Origin: Archaeoglobus sulfaticallidus PM70-1
Lineage (GTDB): Archaea > Halobacteriota > Archaeoglobi > Archaeoglobales > Archaeoglobaceae
Reading direction: 5' to 3'
Assembly (NCBI RefSeq): GCF_000385565.1
Contig: NC_021169.1
Location: forward strand, 310,001-374,000
DNA: 64,000 nt
Shown one piece after another: positions 36,161 through 49,548 of this stretch; position 1 is the first letter of the stretch; each line of letters starts with the position of its first letter. The notes under the pieces are model-generated. The model saw only the letters and a list, made by a program, of their open reading frames with translations. It made no database searches and was not told the DNA's origin. Position numbers and translations under genes: made by a program.

Positions 36161-37320
36161 GTTGTGTATTCCGCATTTAGTTTCACATAGTCGTATGTCA
36201 GGTCACAGCCTATCGCATACCCATAGCCATCTCCCAGCTTCAGCCTGACAGCAATCCTGAAGTCGTCATTCTTTCTCATGAACTCCTCCGCTTCACTTTC
36301 TCTGCCTGTCTGCTTACCTTCATCGAGCAGTGCTATGGATTCATCATCATTCTCGAAAATCAGGGTTATATCCTCTGATATGTCCACCCCGGCATAGCCA
36401 AGGGCAGCTATTATCCTTCCCCAGTTTGGATCGCATCCAAATACTGCCGTCTTTACCAGCAAAGAGCTTGCAACAGATTTTGCGAGGTTGAAGGCATCTT
36501 CATCACTCTTCGCCCCATGAACATGCACTTCAAAGACCTTTGTAGCTCCCTCTCCATCCCTGACTATCATCTTTGCGAGGTTGAAGCAGACCTCCTTCAA
36601 AGCAAGCTTGAAGGTCTCTTCATCCACCTCCACCTCATCAGTTGAGATCAGGAGAACTGTATCATTCGTGGATGTATCTCCATCAACGGTCATCACATTG
36701 AACGATCTATCTACGGCATATCCCAAGCAGTCATACAGGTTCTCAACCTTTGCGTTCGTGAATATGAATGCAAGCATCGTTGCCATATTGGGAGCTATCA
36801 TCCCCGCTCCCTTGGCAACTCCAGCAACAATACAATCACCGAACTTAACTGCAAACTCCTTTGGGTAGCGATCAGTCGTCATTATCGATTTTGCAAACTC
36901 TTCCGCAGACTTTCTGGATGCTGATAGCCTGCTATACACCTCATCAACCTTTTTTTCTATCCATTCCATATCGAGCTGCCTGCCTATAACTCCAGTGGAA
37001 CAGACCGCAACCTTCTCTGCATCACAGCCAATCTTCTCCGCAAGCAATTCTGCCATCCTCTTCGCGTTTTTAATTCCCTCCTCTCCAGTATAGGCATTGG
37101 CATTCCCGCTGTTTACGATTATACCCTCAACCCATCCATTCTTTATGTGTTCAGATGTGACCATAACCGGTGCAGCTTTTATCCTGTTCTCGGTAAAAAC
37201 CCCAGCAACCCTACCTCTGCACTTAACAATCCCAAGGCCGTTCTTTCCCTCCTTCACACCATAACACTCAAGTCCGGTTATGGCATTGATTGAGTCGTTC
37301 AACCTCAAAATCTCCACCAT
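36157..37320 (-). CDS. argJ: ArgJ, glutamate N-acetyltransferase (ornithine acetyltransferase)
   Basis: The 387-residue enzyme moves acetyl groups from N-acetylornithine to glutamate in arginine synthesis. The self-cleavage site is in GVAKGAGMIAPNMATMLAFI, where cleavage before the Thr gives alpha and beta chains with threonine as nucleophile. Oxyanion-hole residues are in VCSTGVIGRQL, and the C-terminus has FGCDPNWGRIIAALGYAG. Length is normal. The gene overlaps the downstream FAD oxidoreductase gene by four bases. Confidence 0.95.
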   Translation of the reverse strand: MVEILRLNDSINAITGLECYGVKEGKNGLGIVKCRGRVAGVFTENRIKAAPVMVTSEHIKNGWVEGIIVNSGNANAYTGEEGIKNAKRMAELLAEKIGCDAEKVAVCSTGVIGRQLDMEWIEKKVDEVYSRLSASRKSAEEFAKSIMTTDRYPKEFAVKFGDCIVAGVAKGAGMIAPNMATMLAFIFTNAKVENLYDCLGYAVDRSFNVMTVDGDTSTNDTVLLISTDEVEVDEETFKLALKEVCFNLAKMIVRDGEGATKVFEVHVHGAKSDEDAFNLAKSVASSLLVKTAVFGCDPNWGRIIAALGYAGVDISEDITLIFENDDESIALLDEGKQTGRESEAEEFMRKNDDFRIAVRLKLGDGYGYAIGCDLTYDYVKLNAEYTT

Positions 37321-37421
37321 CCCTGAAACCTCTGCCCATCGCTATAAATTTTTATTGTGGATTTTATTTGAGTTCATCATCTAGGGGCAAAGATTTAAGA
37401 GATCAACCCAAGTCTCCAAAG

Positions 37422-37964
37422 ATGATGTCGGAGATATTCATCCCGTACATTTCATTCCAACTGAGGACTGGAAAAAGACTCTGGGTGGATGCTTACTTCT
37501 CTGCAAAGCTTGACGAGAGGTTCAGGATTGCGGGACTTATAAGGGAGAGTGTTGAGAGAAGCTATGTAAATAGTGCTCTCAAACTCGATGCAATCCTTAG
37601 CAAGGATGAACTTGCCAGAACATTTTCCGAAATCCTGACTGAGGTTGAGAGGAAGCTCAAGCTTGTCAAAATAGAAAGAGGGAAAAGATTCGGAAGATGG
37701 TCTTTTTTCCGAACCCTCTTTCTGCCTTTTGGCCACTCAAAAAACCTCAGTCAGGATGAGAGGTTATCCAAAATGCAAATAGAACTGATGCAGTCAGCGG
37801 AGATTCTAAGGGCTGTGTCAGATTGCACCGTACTAGGAGACACAGGATATATCTCAATCAAAATTAAGGATGGCCTGCCAGAGGATAAGATCTACAGAAG
37901 GCTGTATGAGCTGGATGAGGGTTTCAGAAAGGAATTTGATGAAGTTAGTAAGAAATTTCAGTAA
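37422..37964 (+). CDS. Unknown protein, about 180 residues
   Basis: The product begins MMSEIFIPYISFQLRTGKRLWVD and is predicted mainly helical, with a basic middle (KIERGKRFGRWSFFR) and a C-terminal GDTGYISIKIKDGLPEDKIYRRLYELDEG segment (given in part). I do not recognise the family. The methionines at 37422 or 37425 are the likely starts; an upstream extension in frame overlaps the divergent argJ promoter. It converges with oppF, overlapping its end by seven bases. Confidence 0.65.
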   Translation: MMSEIFIPYISFQLRTGKRLWVDAYFSAKLDERFRIAGLIRESVERSYVNSALKLDAILSKDELARTFSEILTEVERKLKLVKIERGKRFGRWSFFRTLFLPFGHSKNLSQDERLSKMQIELMQSAEILRAVSDCTVLGDTGYISIKIKDGLPEDKIYRRLYELDEGFRKEFDEVSKKFQ

Positions 37965-38926
37965 AGCCAACAGGCAACAAACCTATCGCTATCCACCTTT
38001 TTAAGCTCTGGTTCCTTTTCCCTGCAAATATCCTTCGCATACTGACATCTCGGATTGAACCTGCAGCCTTCTGGTGGGTTTATTGGACTGGGTGGTTCTC
38101 CAATAACCTTTATTCTCTCCTTCTTTTTCTCAATATCCGGATCGGGAATTGGAATTGCTGAGAACAGAGCCTTTGTGTATGGATGCAAAGGCTCTTCAAA
38201 TATGCTCTCAGAGTTACCAACCTCAGCAAGCTTACCGAGATACATCACCCCAATCCTGTGACTCATGTACTTCACAATGGCAAGATCGTGGCTTATGAAT
38301 AAGTATGTCAGCTTGTACTCATCCTGAATGTCTTTCAGCGTATTCAGTATGTTCGCCTGAACAGAGACGTCCAAAGCCGAAGTCGGTTCATCCAGCACAA
38401 CAAACTCTGGCTTTAAAGATAGAATCCTTGCCATCGCAATCCTTTGCCTCTGACCACCACTGAACTCGTGAGGGTAACGATAGAGATGGCTCTCGTTCAG
38501 TCCAACCCTCTCAAGCAGATCGATGACGAAAGCCTCGGGATCATCCACCTCAATGCCGTGATGCCTGACCGGCTCCATCACGATCTGAAAAACCGTCTGC
38601 CTTGGATTAAGGGACGAATACGGATCCTGAAACATTATCTGAGCTTTTCTCCTGAACCGGTTGATGTCCTTCTTGCTGAATTTCATTATGTCCTTTCCTT
38701 CAAAAAGGATCTGACCGTCTGTTGGTTCAATAAGCCTGAGAATCGTTCTTCCAACTGTTGTCTTTCCACATCCGCTTTCTCCAACCAAACCGAAAGTCTC
38801 TCCCCTGAGTATCTCAAAAGATACTCCATCGACAGCCTTAACATAGCCTTTCGTGAAGAACAGACCCTTTACAGGGAAGTATTTTTTGAGGTTCCTTACC
38901 TGAAGGATGTACTTCGTGCTTTGCAT
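37958..38926 (-). CDS. oppF: Oligopeptide/dipeptide ABC transporter ATPase (OppF/DppF)
   Basis: An ATPase of about 322 residues with Walker [17 protein letters not shown]-loop [14 protein letters not shown], signature [15 protein letters not shown], Walker [12 protein letters not shown] and switch SHDLAIV. The C-terminal oligopeptide-transporter extension [17 protein letters not shown] with cysteines is present, as in proteins that carry a [4Fe-4S]-like cysteine set. Start 38926 is chosen because GGTGAT lies four bases upstream; GTG at 38935 overlaps the oppD stop. It is the last gene of the operon. Confidence 0.94.
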
Positions 38927-38931
38927 CCAGA

Positions 38932-39912
38932 TCACCCGACATTATGGCATGCAACAAAGTGCCCATCTTCCAGCTCAACAAGCTCTGGAGTTTTCTCTCT
39001 GCATATACTGGAAGCCAGAGGGCATCTCGGACTGAACCTGCAGCCTTCTGGTGGGTTTATCAGGCTGGGCACAGTTCCGGGAATAGTTTCCAGCCTTTCG
39101 ATTTTAACAAGCGGGTTTGGAACCGCCCTGAGCAACCCCTGAGTGTATGGGTGGAGAGGTTTTTTGAATATCGCATACACATCTCCAAGCTCAACGATTT
39201 TCCCCGCATACATCACTCCAACTCTATCAGCCATGCCTGCAACCACACCCATATCGTGGGTTATGAGTATCACAGTCGCCCCGTATCTTTCCTTCATATC
39301 CTTTATCAGATCAAGGATCTGTGTCTGAACCGTAACATCCAAAGCTGTGGTTGGCTCATCAGCAATCAGCAACTTCGGGTTGTTTGATATCCCTATGCCA
39401 ATCGTGGCCCTCTGCTTCATCCCCCCACTCATTTCATGGGGGTAATTGCTCACCCTCTTCTCGGGATCGGGCATCAAAACCGTTCTCAGTATCTCAACCG
39501 CCTTCTTTATCCCATCCTTCAAGTTTTCAACCCTCTTGTGAACATACAATGCTTCCGATATCTGATAACCTATCGTATATAACGGATCTAGGGATGATTG
39601 AGGATCTTGAAATATGTATGCGATTTCGCTACCCCTTATCTTTCGTATTTCCTCCTCAGAGAGCTTTAAAAGATCCACTCTCCCCTTATCGGATGTATAA
39701 TAAACCTCCCCACCAACAATCCTGCCGGGAGATTCGATGAGCTGGGTTAAAGCCCTTGCAGTAACACTTTTACCGCAACCCGTTTCACCAACGAGGGCGA
39801 ATGTTTCTCCCATATATACATCAAACGAGACTTTCTCAATCGCCTTGACTATCCCGGCATAGGTGTAAAAGTGTACTGTCAGATCCCTTACCTCGAGCAC
39901 CTTGCTCTTCAT
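38932..39912 (-). CDS. oppD: Oligopeptide/dipeptide ABC transporter ATPase (OppD/DppD)
   Basis: The 326-residue ATPase has Walker A GETGCGKSVTARALTQL, Q-loop IFQDPQSSLDP, signature MSGGMKQRATIGIGI, Walker B LLIADEPTTALD and switch THDMGVVAGM. The tail [18 protein letters not shown] carries the family's cysteines. It works as a heterodimer with OppF under the OppB/OppC pore. The start overlaps the oppC stop by four bases. Confidence 0.95.
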   Translation of the reverse strand: MKSKVLEVRDLTVHFYTYAGIVKAIEKVSFDVYMGETFALVGETGCGKSVTARALTQLIESPGRIVGGEVYYTSDKGRVDLLKLSEEEIRKIRGSEIAYIFQDPQSSLDPLYTIGYQISEALYVHKRVENLKDGIKKAVEILRTVLMPDPEKRVSNYPHEMSGGMKQRATIGIGISNNPKLLIADEPTTALDVTVQTQILDLIKDMKERYGATVILITHDMGVVAGMADRVGVMYAGKIVELGDVYAIFKKPLHPYTQGLLRAVPNPLVKIERLETIPGTVPSLINPPEGCRFSPRCPLASSICREKTPELVELEDGHFVACHNVG

Positions 39913-41063
39913 TCCTGTTCACCCTTTTTCTTCTTTACCTTAAACTCGATGCTCCTTCTCAGTTTTGGATCCAGAACATCTCTGAGCGAGTCTCCAAGCA
40001 GGTTCCATCCGAGAACATCTAACAGCACAATTAAGCCCGGAAAGACTATGAGCCACCACGCCTTCGGGAAGAACTGAGAGCCGTCGTAAACTATTCTTCC
40101 CCAGTCCGCTATGGGTGGTGTTGCTCCAAGCCCGAGGAAGCTCAGTCCAGCTTCGGTCAGAACAACGCTGCCAAAGTCAAGTGTGATGTAAACGAGGATT
40201 GGCCCGATAATGTTGGGGAGTATGTGTCTTGCCATGATCGTGGTGGATGATAGCCCAATAGCCTTTGCTGATTCTACATACAACACCTCTCTCTCTGTTA
40301 GAGTTGAACCTCTCGTAATCCTCGCATATCCTGGCCACCAGACAACAGCCATAGCGATCATAACTGCGAGAAGTCTTCCAAGATTTCCAGCTTCTCTCGT
40401 ATCGAGAGCAAAAAGCCAGAGAAGGATTTGCTGCAGTAGTGGGCTGCTGTCTATCAGACCGGTTATCCTTTCAGGCAGGACTGCTGCAAAGGCTATTGCA
40501 AGTATGAGCGGTGGAAAGGCGAGAAACATATCGGTTATACGCATTATAATCTCATCAACTTTCCCGCCAAAATATCCAGCAACAAGTCCAAGAATTATCC
40601 CCAGCGGAACTCCGAGAAGTATAACTATAATCGATATGACCAGCGAGGTTCTAGCCCCCTGAAGCAGAAGGCTTACAAGATCCCTGCCAAAGTGATCCGC
40701 TCCAAGCGGGAAGAACTCTCCGGGCGGAGAGAGATATGTTCTACCATTTTCGAATATCGGGAAATAATTATACTTATAGGGAGCGAGATAAGGACCGAAT
40801 ATTCCAAGTAAAACGAACATTGTAACCAAAAAAAGTCCTATTATCCCCGGTGGAGATCTGTTGAGGGCATAAAACATCAACTTCCACTCTGCAATTCTCG
40901 AACGATTTTTTTCTCTCCAGTCCTTCCTCACAAGAGATATTATGGACACTACCACCTCAATGAAGAGATCGGAGATTCTGTCAAGTATGCTCCTCTGATA
41001 TTCCTCCTCTTTTTGTGTTTCCTGTATCTCCCGACTCTCCTGCATCGAACCTCCCCTCAGCAT
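39909..41063 (-). CDS. oppC: Oligopeptide/dipeptide ABC transporter permease (OppC/DppC)
   Basis: The 384-residue membrane protein has about six helices. An unusually long, Glu/Gln-rich cytoplasmic N-terminus (about 1-70) precedes the first helix GIIGLFLVTMFVLLGIFGPYLAP. The EAA coupling segment is YVESAKAIGLSSTTIMARHILPN, followed by AGLSFLGLGATPPIADWG, typical of DppC. It overlaps oppD. Confidence 0.94.
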   Translation of the reverse strand: MLRGGSMQESREIQETQKEEEYQRSILDRISDLFIEVVVSIISLVRKDWREKNRSRIAEWKLMFYALNRSPPGIIGLFLVTMFVLLGIFGPYLAPYKYNYFPIFENGRTYLSPPGEFFPLGADHFGRDLVSLLLQGARTSLVISIIVILLGVPLGIILGLVAGYFGGKVDEIIMRITDMFLAFPPLILAIAFAAVLPERITGLIDSSPLLQQILLWLFALDTREAGNLGRLLAVMIAMAVVWWPGYARITRGSTLTEREVLYVESAKAIGLSSTTIMARHILPNIIGPILVYITLDFGSVVLTEAGLSFLGLGATPPIADWGRIVYDGSQFFPKAWWLIVFPGLIVLLDVLGWNLLGDSLRDVLDPKLRRSIEFKVKKKKGEQE

Positions 41064-41069
41064 CTAACT

Positions 41070-42071
41070 CTAGTATCTAACTCTTGGATCGACTACCGCG
41101 TAGAAGATATCAACTATTAGGTTCGCAATTACATAAACAAGAGCGAATACGAATGTCACCGCAACGATTGCTGGAAAGTCAAGTGTACGGATTGAAAATA
41201 TGGCGTAAAGCCCTATCCCCGGTAAGCCGAATACAGTTTCCGTTATCGGTGCACCACTTAGCAGTCCACCAAACTGCAAACCAAGAACGGTCATGATCGG
41301 CACCAAGGAATTCTTCATCGCATGCCTGTATATCCCCAACTTGGGCACTCCCTTAGCCTTCAGAAATTCTATGTAATCCCCTCCCATAGCCTCAAGGAAG
41401 GAGTTTCTGACGAATCTTGCCACAACTCCAGCACCCATAAATCCCAAAACGAATCCGGGAAGCCAGAATCTTGCAACATGCTGTCTGAACAGCTCAAAAT
41501 CACCATTCAGCAACGCATCTATCACGGGAACATGGGTTATAGCAACCTCTGGAGACGGAGGAACTCCTGCGAGGTTGATGATCCTGAAGTTGACAAAGAA
41601 TATGTATATCAGAATGTAACCGAGCCAGAAAACGGGTGTTGATACACCTATAAGGGCAAAAATTCTGACGAAGGTATCAATGGCACTATCCCTTTTCAGA
41701 GCGGAGATAAGGCCGAGGGGTATGCCAATTAAAAGAACGAAAAAGTAGGCAAACAGGGCAAGCTGAAATGTAACAGGGAATCTTTTACCCACATCATCCA
41801 TAACGGGATTCGATGTTCTGGGGTCTATTATCTCATTTTTTAATAATCCAGAAATGAGAAATATATATTGGTCATACCATGGATCATCCATATGATATTT
41901 CTCTTTAATTATCTCGATTGCTTTCTGGCTTGCTTTCTCTCCTCCAGCCCATGCTCTTGCTGGATCTGCCGGGATCAGGTAGGCTATTGCAAAAACTATC
42001 AGGGTGATACCGATTATCGTTGGGATGAATGTTAGCATTCGCCTTATCAGGAACTTCTTTAGCTCCGCCAC
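41070..42071 (-). CDS. oppB: Oligopeptide/dipeptide ABC transporter permease (OppB/DppB)
   Basis: The 333-residue membrane protein starts with FLIRRMLTFIPTIIGITLIVFA, the standard OppB opening helix, and contains the EAA-type loop YIEFLKAKGVPKLGIYRHAMKN and GAPITETVFGLPGIG. It pairs with OppC to form the pore. oppC starts six bases after its stop. A 252-base A/T-rich gap separates it from the binding-protein gene and might hold a terminator or processing site, which would let binding protein be made in excess. Confidence 0.94.
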   Translation of the reverse strand: MAELKKFLIRRMLTFIPTIIGITLIVFAIAYLIPADPARAWAGGEKASQKAIEIIKEKYHMDDPWYDQYIFLISGLLKNEIIDPRTSNPVMDDVGKRFPVTFQLALFAYFFVLLIGIPLGLISALKRDSAIDTFVRIFALIGVSTPVFWLGYILIYIFFVNFRIINLAGVPPSPEVAITHVPVIDALLNGDFELFRQHVARFWLPGFVLGFMGAGVVARFVRNSFLEAMGGDYIEFLKAKGVPKLGIYRHAMKNSLVPIMTVLGLQFGGLLSGAPITETVFGLPGIGLYAIFSIRTLDFPAIVAVTFVFALVYVIANLIVDIFYAVVDPRVRY

Positions 42072-42323: not shown

Positions 42324-44423
42324 TTATTCTACTGCAACATTAACTTCCTTGAATTCCGTTGCTCCATAGTAAAGTGGACCAACCCAGTTGTCGGTGTCGA
42401 GGTAGTCAGGCACCCATCCGATTGTGTAGTAGTCATACTGTCCGTGTTCACCCTTGCTGAGATACACCGGCCATTCGAGACTGCTCACAGTGCACTTGAA
42501 CCCAAGCTGGCTCCAGGTGTTCTGCAGCAGAGCTGAAATCTTCTCTCTAGCTGAGTTACCCGCGTTGTATGTGATCTCTATCGTGTACTTCGATGGATCA
42601 ATTCCTGACTCTTCGATGAGCTTCTTGGCTTTTGCCATGTTGAACTCGTATTTCTCAATGCCATATTCGGTATATCCGGGCCAGCCAATCGGGATTGCTG
42701 CGTAGTTCCTCTCAAGGTTACCTGAATATACCTGTTCGATTATCTGATCATAAGGCACGGCATAGGCCAGAGCCTGCCTGACCTTCGGGTTGTTGAATGG
42801 TTCCTTGTAGGTGTTGAAGACTCCGTATGTAATCGTGGGCTCAAGCAGATCGGTCTGCACAACCGAGTTGAATCCCTGGAATGTCAGACCCTTGACATCA
42901 TCAATTCTCTCAGGTGGTGCAACAACGAAGTCAACCGTGCCTGTCTGGAACAGGTTAATTCTGGAGACTGCATCATTGTTGATTATCCATATAACCGTCT
43001 CATGCTTGGCCTTTGTTCCATCAGAGTACATCTCATCCCAGAGCGACTTGCCCCAGTAGTACGGGTTCATCTTCGCAACGATGTAGCTGTTCTCCTCGTA
43101 CTCTGCTATGTAATATGGCCCAGTGCAGACGGGCTTCTGATGCATGAGCTGATGGGTTGCATCCTCCTTGCCCTCGCTGACATAAGCGTTCCAGACAGAT
43201 GGATCCTTTCCATTCTGAGATGCTGCCAAAGCCTCCTCATACTTGTCTCCAAGCAGGTACTCCATTGGCAGTATTGACAGAAACGGATCTGTTATAACTC
43301 CAAGAATTGGAGCGTAGGGTTGTGGAAGGACAAGCTTGTAAACTCCAGCAGTGCTGCCACTGTATCCAAACATCTTAAGCAATTCATCCATCGACTTGAC
43401 TTCTCCGGATTTTCCTTCATACTCCGCGTAGATTCCTCCTTTCGCAAGAACCTCCTTGAACTCATCCTCTGTCATTGCTATTGACTTGTTAAGATCTGTG
43501 AAATCGAGCATCCAGCTAACGCTGTGTCCGATTCTGTGTACTCTCCAGAAGCTGAATGCAACATCAGTTGCGTCTATCGGATAAGTCTTGTCATTCCATG
43601 GATCGTATGCTACAACACCACCTCTTATGACGAAATACCATTCAGTACCATCAGCATTGTGAGCCCATGCTACAGCCAGATCGGGTGAGACTTTCTCGGT
43701 TTCCTCTTTCCAGTATGTGACTAGGGTGTCTCCAACCTGATGCCAGATCTCCCATCCAAATGTTTCATAGGTCGTTGCAGGATCGAATGACTCCGGCCAT
43801 CCGATGGTACCGATTACAAGTGTGCTCGGGTCGTTCTTGTAGTCCTTGATTCCTATGTCAACTGTCGGAGCGTTCGGATTCTCCCATATCAGGTCGTATC
43901 TCTCGGTGAATGTTGGATGGTAGTATCTGCCTTCAACCCAGTCCCAGTATGTCCTCATCATCTTGTTCTGTCCAAAGACTACTAACGGAACTTCTTTGTT
44001 GGCTATTATGTACATTGCCTTGAACAACTCGGTCCTTACATCCGGATTCGTCTCAAACCTAGCTGCCTTGACAAGAGCGTCAAAGTCCGTATTCCTCCAG
44101 AAAGCAGGGTTTATCGCTCCGAATCCCTGCCCTTCATCCATTAGCTTCTCAATCGGCTTTGTGTTTTCTTCATCGACAACATAGCTCACCCTGATAACTT
44201 TCTTTCCTGATGGTACTTCAACGGTCTCGACCTTTCCTTTCTCTCCAACCACGACCACAGAGGTATCGGTTTCAATAACGGTGGCTGGCTGCGTAGGTGT
44301 TGGTGCTGGTGTTTCAGCAACCGTTGGTGTTGGTGTAGCCTCTGGTTTTTCCTGCTGTGCACAACCTGCGAATGTAACTGCAAGGATTCCTACCATCAAT
44401 ATATATAGCCATACTTTCCTCAT
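42324..44423 (-). CDS. oppA: Oligopeptide-binding lipoprotein, circularly permuted (SBP_bac_5 family)
   Basis: 699 residues with lipoprotein signal MRKVWLYILMVGILAVTFAGC and a Thr/Pro-rich linker. Residues about 95-185 (INPAFWRNTDFDALVKAAR, MYIIANKEVPLVVFGQ, YYHPTFTERYDLIWE) match what is normally the end of DppA/OppA proteins. Only then comes the usual beginning, TLVIGTIGWPESFDPATTYE, with PDLAVAWAHNADGTEWYFVI following. The protein stops at GWVPDYLDTDNWVGPLYYGA plus a short tail, where a normal protein would go on to the part found at the front. The domain appears complete but circularly permuted. It precedes oppBCDF on the same strand. Confidence 0.9.
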   Translation of the reverse strand: MRKVWLYILMVGILAVTFAGCAQQEKPEATPTPTVAETPAPTPTQPATVIETDTSVVVVGEKGKVETVEVPSGKKVIRVSYVVDEENTKPIEKLMDEGQGFGAINPAFWRNTDFDALVKAARFETNPDVRTELFKAMYIIANKEVPLVVFGQNKMMRTYWDWVEGRYYHPTFTERYDLIWENPNAPTVDIGIKDYKNDPSTLVIGTIGWPESFDPATTYETFGWEIWHQVGDTLVTYWKEETEKVSPDLAVAWAHNADGTEWYFVIRGGVVAYDPWNDKTYPIDATDVAFSFWRVHRIGHSVSWMLDFTDLNKSIAMTEDEFKEVLAKGGIYAEYEGKSGEVKSMDELLKMFGYSGSTAGVYKLVLPQPYAPILGVITDPFLSILPMEYLLGDKYEEALAASQNGKDPSVWNAYVSEGKEDATHQLMHQKPVCTGPYYIAEYEENSYIVAKMNPYYWGKSLWDEMYSDGTKAKHETVIWIINNDAVSRINLFQTGTVDFVVAPPERIDDVKGLTFQGFNSVVQTDLLEPTITYGVFNTYKEPFNNPKVRQALAYAVPYDQIIEQVYSGNLERNYAAIPIGWPGYTEYGIEKYEFNMAKAKKLIEESGIDPSKYTIEITYNAGNSAREKISALLQNTWSQLGFKCTVSSLEWPVYLSKGEHGQYDYYTIGWVPDYLDTDNWVGPLYYGATEFKEVNVAVE

Positions 44424-48017: not shown

Positions 48018-48494
48018 ATGGCTTCAGTTGAGATAGTTTATTGGGACGACAGAATTAATGGGAGCCTCAAAAGCGATAAGATAAATGTTGAGCCATACGG
48101 ATTTCAGCTCAGCCCAATTGCCGAATGGAGAATTCTCATTTCAGCAGAAGATAAGGAAGTTGAAGAAAGTAAGGTTTGTGCTATCGATGTTGAGCCGATA
48201 GATGTTCCGGAGAATGCGATAGTTTCCCCTCTTCCAATAATGAGGCACGCTCTCGGTGTTCTGCTGGATGTATATGTTCCCGGAAAGTTGAAAAAGGTTG
48301 AGGAGAGTAAGAAGATAACCCAAGCGATCTTCCTTCCAGTAATGAGTGGAAAAATACGAAAAGGCGAGCTAATTGGAGTTATAAACATAAGATATGTTAA
48401 AACCAGTACACTCAACAAGATCTCCAAAATGCTATCAGAATGGGCTGAAAAGGCCAAATGGGCTGAAGATATCGGTGGAATAAGATGGGAGTAA
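48018..48494 (+). CDS. DUF22 family protein
   Basis: The 158-residue protein is related to the DUF22 family known from Archaeoglobus. Shared features with the 49066-49548 protein are an N-terminal beta strand followed by YGFQLSPIAEWRILISAE, then LPIMRHALGVLLDVYVPGKLKKVEE, and AIFLPVMSGKIRKGELIGVINI. No signal or membrane segment. Function unknown. An IS605-like end begins immediately after its stop codon. Confidence 0.75.
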   Translation: MASVEIVYWDDRINGSLKSDKINVEPYGFQLSPIAEWRILISAEDKEVEESKVCAIDVEPIDVPENAIVSPLPIMRHALGVLLDVYVPGKLKKVEESKKITQAIFLPVMSGKIRKGELIGVINIRYVKTSTLNKISKMLSEWAEKAKWAEDIGGIRWE

Positions 48495-49065: not shown

Positions 49066-49548
49066 TTATTTCTTCCATAGATAGGGCCAGTCCGACTTTA
49101 CGAACACTTCTGGGTCTATTGAGATTGCTTTATCAACTTCACGAAGCTTTTCAACTATAGCCTCTTTGGCCTCCTTTTTCACTGTTGTAACAACACCCAC
49201 TCCAATAAGCGAACCCTTTAAGATCTTTCCATCCGCTATTGGATAGAAAACAACATATTTAACCCTCGATGGCACATCAATCCTTTCAGGCTTTCCGTCC
49301 TCCACCACAGCAACAAGAGTTCCCAAGGCATGCCTGTATCTGTCAAGGAGAGTCAGCCTCTCGTTTCCAGAGATTTTGAATTCCTGAACTTTTATCACTT
49401 TAACACGATTTGCTTTGACTTCCACATCCTCATCGGCTACAATATTAACGAAGTACGCTACAGGCCCGAGAAAATAGCCTGCTTCCTCAACATTGGCCTT
49501 CTCGTAAACGACCTCTGAATCTTTTCGGTAAGAAATTGTTACTTCCAT
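49066..49548 (-). CDS. DUF22 family protein
   Basis: The 160-residue protein (MEVTISYRKDSEVVYEKAN...) shares the DUF22 layout with the 48018 gene: EAGYFLGPVAYFVNIVADE, then LDRYRHALGTLVAVVEDGK, then YVVFYPIADGKILKGSLIGVGVV. Its last 65 bases are duplicated at 48762-48826. No catalytic residues recognised; function unknown. It is transcribed on its own, with the TauE/SafE gene upstream reading in the same direction. Confidence 0.78.
   Translation of the reverse strand: MEVTISYRKDSEVVYEKANVEEAGYFLGPVAYFVNIVADEDVEVKANRVKVIKVQEFKISGNERLTLLDRYRHALGTLVAVVEDGKPERIDVPSRVKYVVFYPIADGKILKGSLIGVGVVTTVKKEAKEAIVEKLREVDKAISIDPEVFVKSDWPYLWKK

Follow-up and report, generated by a model that had tools for sequence, protein, structure and literature searches.

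Circular permutation of a family-5 substrate-binding lipoprotein encoded with oppBCDF in archaea

Upstream of oppBCDF in the window (the whole 64-kb stretch of DNA that was analysed) lies permA, a gene for a substrate-binding protein (SBP) of the OppA/DppA type, in which the original prediction placed the usual C-terminal block near the N-terminus and read the arrangement as a circular permutation. The question raised by this locus is whether the chain is rotated or carries an added copy of one block, and, if it is rotated, how the new order arose and what it does to the protein.

Gene, operon and segment order of permA

The permA open reading frame (ORF) is exactly 42324-44423 on the minus strand, starts with ATG and encodes 699 residues without interruption. 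The family-5 profile PF00496 scores 210.7 bits against a curated cut-off of 32.4, with profile positions 1-364 aligned to residues 244-688, which places the protein among the family-5 (cluster C) SBPs. The features of the locus are as follows.

42324..44423, minus strand: permA, circularly permuted family-5 (OppA/DppA-type) substrate-binding lipoprotein, 699 aa (ORF; PF00496; orthologues)
44361..44423, minus strand: signal peptide and lipobox, residues 1-21 (VTFAGC), predicted lipid anchor Cys21 (7 orthologues; signal match)
44286..44360, minus strand: Thr/Pro-rich linker, residues 22-46 (length varies by species; pLDDT <50 to residue 44)
44112..44285, minus strand: family-specific beta segment, residues 47-104, containing the new termini (698/47) (no hhalign match)
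43878..44111, minus strand: canonical SBP C-terminal block, now near the N-terminus, residues 105-182 (hhalign; DppA 458-530)
43830..43877, minus strand: join of old C-terminus to old N-terminus, residues 183-198 (profile alignments)
42330..43829, minus strand: canonical SBP N-terminal and middle blocks, residues 199-698, in canonical order (PF00496; hhalign)
43023..43028, minus strand: site matching the chain ends of layout II (see below), residues 466/467, in a loop between H459-465 and E476-481
41070..42071, minus strand: oppB permease (PF00528 and PF19300)
39909..41063, minus strand: oppC permease (PF00528 and OppC_N)
38932..39912, minus strand: oppD ATPase (ABC_tran and oligo_HPY)
37958..38935, minus strand: oppF ATPase (ABC_tran and oligo_HPY)

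The oppBCDF set is complete, as predicted, since all four ORFs are intact with their Pfam domains, and permA, upstream of them, is thus encoded together with OppB, OppC, OppD and OppF. The chain begins with the signal peptide (residues 1-21, lipobox FAGC) and the Thr/Pro linker (residues 22-46) that had been recognised in front of the permuted part; A19-G20-C21 is invariant across seven permA orthologues, and the signal matches the lipoprotein type. Two neighbouring features were also recorded. A protein of approximately 195-225 residues that matches no Pfam family is encoded convergently to oppF in the window (37290-37964, plus strand) and in the loci L124 (12208-12795) and L216 (1141-1728); its presence beside oppF in both Archaeoglobus and Thermococcus loci looks like that of a conserved neighbour. 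Elsewhere in the window, two ORFs of approximately 160 residues with similar sequences (48018-48494, plus strand; 49066-49548, minus strand) lie approximately 570 bases apart on opposite strands.

A phmmer comparison with the structure of Yersinia DppA (5f1q) aligns permA in three pieces in rotated order: residues 200-295 with 29-125, 422-685 with 198-448 and 105-177 with 458-530 of DppA, the last being weak by itself (11 bits). A full-length profile built from canonical family-5 proteins, mostly of the same archaeal family as the window genome, likewise finds the C-terminal block (profile 457-528) first, followed by 39-156 and 200-446. The score of this block on single sequences is low (11-17 bits), and a profile-profile comparison (hhalign) was therefore used. 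Residues 105-180 of the permA family (aligned 107-177) match canonical 452-522 with a probability of 97.3 and an E-value of 1.8e-11, whereas residues 198-687 as a whole correspond to canonical 39-444, through 198-307 (39-142), a further block matching 155-185 in order, 430-540 (193-289), 542-619 (294-373) and 614-687 (370-444). Residues 48-104 have no canonical counterpart in the hhalign comparison and are an insert specific to the permA family; the strands predicted at this insert are E47-51, E55-61, E75-83 and E691-698.

These block matches indicate that the order in permA is rotated, that each block occurs once and that the extra family segment holds the chain ends. The C-terminal block comes first and the N-terminal block after it, and the swapped parts together cover the whole domain; judged by its alignments, permA is a homologue of the family-5 SBPs that does not share their canonical order. 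The motifs from which the rotation had been read lie where they were placed: FDALVKAAR starts at residue 114, YDLIWE ends at residue 181, and the typical opening TLVIGTIGWPESFDPATTYE follows the relocated block from residue 201. The dimensions given at the same time need revision. The relocated block was said to extend over residues 95-185 or so, but the homologous block comprises only approximately 75 residues (105-180); the rotation was put at approximately 90 residues, but because the family insert holds the new ends, approximately 150 residues (47-198) stand ahead of the old N-terminus. The protein was also said to end at GWVPDYLDTDNW, the DxDNW motif, which is indeed found at residues 669-680, with 19 residues still to follow before the stop.

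The short stretch behind this motif also bears on a partial duplication, in which an extra C-terminal block would have been added in front while the C-terminus kept its own copy, an intermediate expected under the duplication model of permutation (PMC3320104). The original prediction had named such a second copy as the observation that would speak against it. Since permA stops 19 residues past the DxDNW motif, and no second copy of any block is present in the protein, in the 64-kb window or in the genome, partial duplication is rejected for permA and is left with a negligible probability; the rearranged relatives described below likewise carry each block once. The comparisons by phmmer, canonical profile and profile-profile alignment, which are equivalent to the proposed dot plot, thus all give a rotated order with every block present once.

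Layouts among the relatives and number of permutation events

Each of the other five genomes of the genus encodes a full-length orthologue with the same layout (84-88% identity), as does one genome of another genus (78%); at the loci inspected, the gene precedes oppBCDF. A scan of the genomes of 84,980 species with a seven-sequence alignment as the query identifies 33 permA-type relatives, mostly in metagenome bins, whose records are named Archaeoglobus, Thermococcus, Thermococcaceae, Staphylothermus, Desulfurococcales, Thermoproteota or Thermoplasmata. Within the Thermococcus class, whole-genome searches find the family in approximately half of 115 genomes (by table count, 56 have the window layout and three a different one), and within the phylum of the Desulfurococcales bin that carries L134, in approximately one tenth of 398 genomes.

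The 99 family proteins, from several archaeal phyla, were mapped by HMM coverage onto permA numbering. Layout I, the window type with ends at approximately 698/47, is found in 62 proteins, and layout II, with ends at approximately 466/467, in 31; layouts III (L133, approximately 516/517) and IV (L147, approximately 613) are represented by one protein each, and the four proteins cut by contig ends (L135, L140, L149, L151) were left unscored. None of the 99 has the canonical order. The two pieces of layouts II-IV are complementary and together cover the domain about once: L132 consists of 466-698 followed by 48-466, and L133 of 516-698 followed by 48-517. Each layout has its own stop and, before the new start, its own signal peptide or membrane anchor, mostly with a Thr/Pro/Ser linker. 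In the loci with enough flanking sequence, oppB is adjacent or near and mostly co-directional. Departures from the arrangement in the window were noted in L233 (6973-9201) and L234 (2154-4475), where layout-I SBP genes are divergent from oppB, and in L142 (8053-10720; similarly in L143-L145), where a beta-propeller gene (PF09826) and a small helix-turn-helix-like gene, both on the opposite strand, lie between the layout-II SBP gene and oppB.

Many of these relatives come from metagenome bins, so a misassembly, a frameshift or a fusion of neighbouring ORFs has to be weighed. However, permA is one uninterrupted ORF in a single-contig genome of 2.08 Mb, the same segment order recurs in 62 proteins, many of them from single-contig assemblies or very long contigs, and every layout comes with a stop and a signal or anchor of its own. 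An artefact is rejected on account of this conservation in independent genomes and is given next to no weight; the search for orthologues with the same order had been proposed with the prediction and bears it out.

The layouts differ between close relatives. After un-rotation, L132 (ends 466/467) is 82% identical to L124 (ends 698/47), and the layout-II Thermococci proteins L132, L216 and L217 are 82-83% identical to this layout-I Thermococcus protein; the alignment score of L132 against permA is 1742 in linear and 2657 in rotated form. All proteins were un-rotated into one alignment, from which a maximum-likelihood tree of 57 representatives and 200 bootstrap trees were calculated. The gene tree requires at least six layout changes, with five gains or losses of layout I and four of layout II, and a single origin of layout I or of layout II is found in none of the 200 bootstrap trees. 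The layout-II representative L132 sits among layout-I Thermococcus proteins, L134 (layout II) adjoins nine layout-I proteins, and L133 (layout III) is nested among layout I. With outgroups, whose branches are long, the minimum rises to nine changes. The family-5 SBP of these archaeal transporters has therefore been circularly permuted repeatedly, and the cut has moved several times among relatives.

A mixed tree might also result from a few ancient permutations followed by gene conversion between co-existing layouts. The genome G556 does carry two layouts, and the family moves horizontally, a window-type operon being present in a genome of another genus whose congeners carry another operon. 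When the two blocks are treed separately, each tree still requires a minimum of six changes and L132 remains among the Thermococcus layout-I proteins, which argues against conversion and makes this scenario improbable; horizontal transfer alone does not matter, since the changes are counted on the gene tree. A still slimmer chance is given to fission and fusion, a recognised route (PMC3320104) in which two separate half-proteins would be re-fused in the other order: several repeats at different sites would be needed, in the intact family loci, we noticed no pair of genes split at a permutation site, and the split matches among relatives, judged from search tables, looked like contig ends or broken genes. 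For repeated permutation, in-frame tandem duplication would be the most likely origin of the new layouts, with subsequent trimming at both ends while signal and linker were retained or reacquired. Tandem duplication with trimming is an accepted model of circular permutation (PMC3320104); the duplicated intermediates that it predicts were not seen among the 99 family proteins.

Predicted fold, proposed function and known systems

The AlphaFold2 model of layout I (51 sequences; mean pLDDT 89.6, pTM 0.85) is one compact SBP fold in which only residues 1-44 are disordered, in agreement with the closed fold that the prediction had proposed to look for. Its best PDB matches in Foldseek are DppA, OppA, GbpA and HbpA (E-values to 2.5e-23; DppA approximately 1e-22), with a TM-score to the target of up to 0.68, a score from which the relocated block is left out because Foldseek aligns in chain order only. 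On this prediction, the permA chain would close into the usual two-lobed cluster C fold. The layout II model (31 sequences; pLDDT 86.6, pTM 0.85) also retrieves family-5 proteins. Compared by secondary-structure elements along the alignment rather than by superposed coordinates, all 44 aligned elements are of the same type in layout II and in un-rotated layout I, with one extra helix unmatched. In the permA model, the cut sites 466/467, 516/517 and approximately 613 fall in loops or at the edges of elements and site 698 at the end of a family-insert strand; on the predicted secondary structure, the new ends thus lie in loops and the old ends are joined.

The segment order, the single blocks, the conservation across genera and phyla, the linkage to the operon and the several cut sites observed for the family are best explained jointly if permA is a circularly permuted substrate-capturing lipoprotein of an OppBCDF-type ABC importer (probability approximately 0.9). 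In this reading, the old C-terminal block is joined to the old N-terminus, new ends have opened inside the family-specific insert, and the new N-terminus stands behind the lipobox signal and the Thr/Pro linker. Since the cuts lie in loops and a link between the old ends is feasible, permA presumably still acts as a Venus-flytrap binding protein that passes its ligand to OppBC, and what changes would mainly be the point at which the domain is tethered. Operon linkage, predicted fold and predicted lipid anchor speak for permA as the importer's extracellular receptor. The family need not transport peptides: in L227 (4241-8131), a GH3 beta-glucosidase is encoded directly upstream of a layout-II SBP, with both in one open frame that spans a run of N, and this neighbourhood suggests a beta-glucoside (sugar) transporter in that species. 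P. furiosus CbtA (cellobiose) was considered as a possible characterised orthologue.

The canonical family-5/cluster C SBPs (OppA, DppA, NikA, SapA; PF00496) share with permA the profile, the predicted fold and the oppBCDF operon, whereas permA differs in its rotated order and in the family insert of approximately 60 residues at 47-104. Permuted SBPs are already known in other binding-protein clusters. TpMglB-2 (Tp0684) of Treponema pallidum is a naturally permuted tethered SBP, proposed as 'Type Ic / Cluster Bc', which as a lipoprotein still binds glucose and changes conformation (PMC4990184). It has the cluster B sugar-binding fold in a single described layout; permA does not match its sequence, and all sequence matches and Foldseek matches listed for permA are cluster C family-5 proteins, so that permA does not belong to cluster Bc. 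The glycine-betaine- and molybdate-binding proteins, of other SBP clusters, also show a circularly permuted relationship, but it was found by structure at less than 24% identity (PMC2395249), whereas the permuted pairs here are up to 82-86% identical. DNA methyltransferases, as cited in PMC3320104, form a family with permuted motif orders and documented intermediates; they are enzymes, whereas the permA family consists of binding proteins. In the open-licence literature, no report of circular permutation in family-5 or archaeal SBPs is found. What is new is the family itself, its breadth across archaeal phyla and the repeated shifts of the cut in one orthologous operon gene at high identity.

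The authors of the TpMglB-2 study considered the permutation a possible adaptation to tethering (PMC4990184). The permA family and related proteins are also predicted to be tethered, by a lipid, an N-terminal helix or a PGF-CTERM tail, which by analogy would fit this idea, and a moved tether point may be useful in proteins that need to stay anchored. A broader proposal, that the chain ends of archaeal OppA-type proteins are evolutionarily mobile and that permutation is a standing process, favoured because a moved tether with its Thr/Pro linker alters how the lobes are presented to the permease, is offered tentatively and is rather doubtful.

Most natural circular permutations on record are ancient and separate distant homologues, which makes their origin and relevance hard to study. 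One operon family with four layouts provides material for studying how permutations arise: proteins on either side of a layout switch are still 82-86% identical, which allows a direct comparison of parent, product and breakpoint as well as tests of the permuted pairs in culturable hyperthermophiles. There are also consequences for annotation: in linear profile searches, permuted proteins score like incomplete or damaged family-5 members, and they escape rules built on a single domain order.

Other permuted family-5 proteins

A further, independent permutation is found in at least one operon type besides that of permA. The proteins termed type C (L051, L052 and L054 in the genomes G122, G131 and G172, one of which measures 2,178,400 bp) are encoded by open frames of 539-542 residues in three genomes of one genus of the same archaeal family, and their best relatives are canonical. 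In L052, residues 215-539 correspond to 39-363 (86% identity) and 49-211 to 363-525 (83%) of the canonical protein L013 from a congeneric genome, with the signal peptide kept in front of the permuted blocks; in the DNA of the stretch compared, the alignment is confined to the two blocks (79-80%). By these alignments, type C is a clean and independent permutation of a canonical protein 83-86% identical to it. PDB sequence searches with the type-C protein and with the layout-I profile named canonical-type family-5 proteins, none of them a close relative. Remnants of a pre-permutation gene were sought in the window and around the Archaeoglobus type-C gene, and none were found there. The type-C gene is divergent from oppB, whereas its canonical relative in other genera of the family precedes oppBCDF and shares its direction, the oppBCDF genes there being 67-86% identical to the set of the type-C genome. 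The difference in orientation raises two in-place inversions as a lead for the origin of type C, although such inversions leave the signal peptide unexplained.

The type B protein (L033, 8730-10496, in G017), encoded at the 3' end of oppBCDF, has a signal peptide, a PGF-CTERM tail and the type-C cut site and, by its sequence, is clearly permuted. Type D (L093, 7296-9665, and L094, L095 and L096; 789-796 aa with PGF-CTERM, in four genomes of one genus) is a divergent family-5 protein encoded upstream of its own oppBCDF, in which canonical 233-405 comes first, followed by weak matches to 90-132 and 193-212; type D is probably permuted too, its ends lying close to canonical position 225. At the flanking genes where the congeners L093, L095 and L096 carry the type-D operon, L035 (G018) carries a window-type operon, an apparent replacement of the whole operon. 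Additionally, L097 (contig C218 of G293) contains an 804-residue frame that runs from the contig edge, places the C-part of a family-5 protein ahead of the N-part and carries a dockerin-like tail, an arrangement that fits both a permutation and a two-domain fusion.
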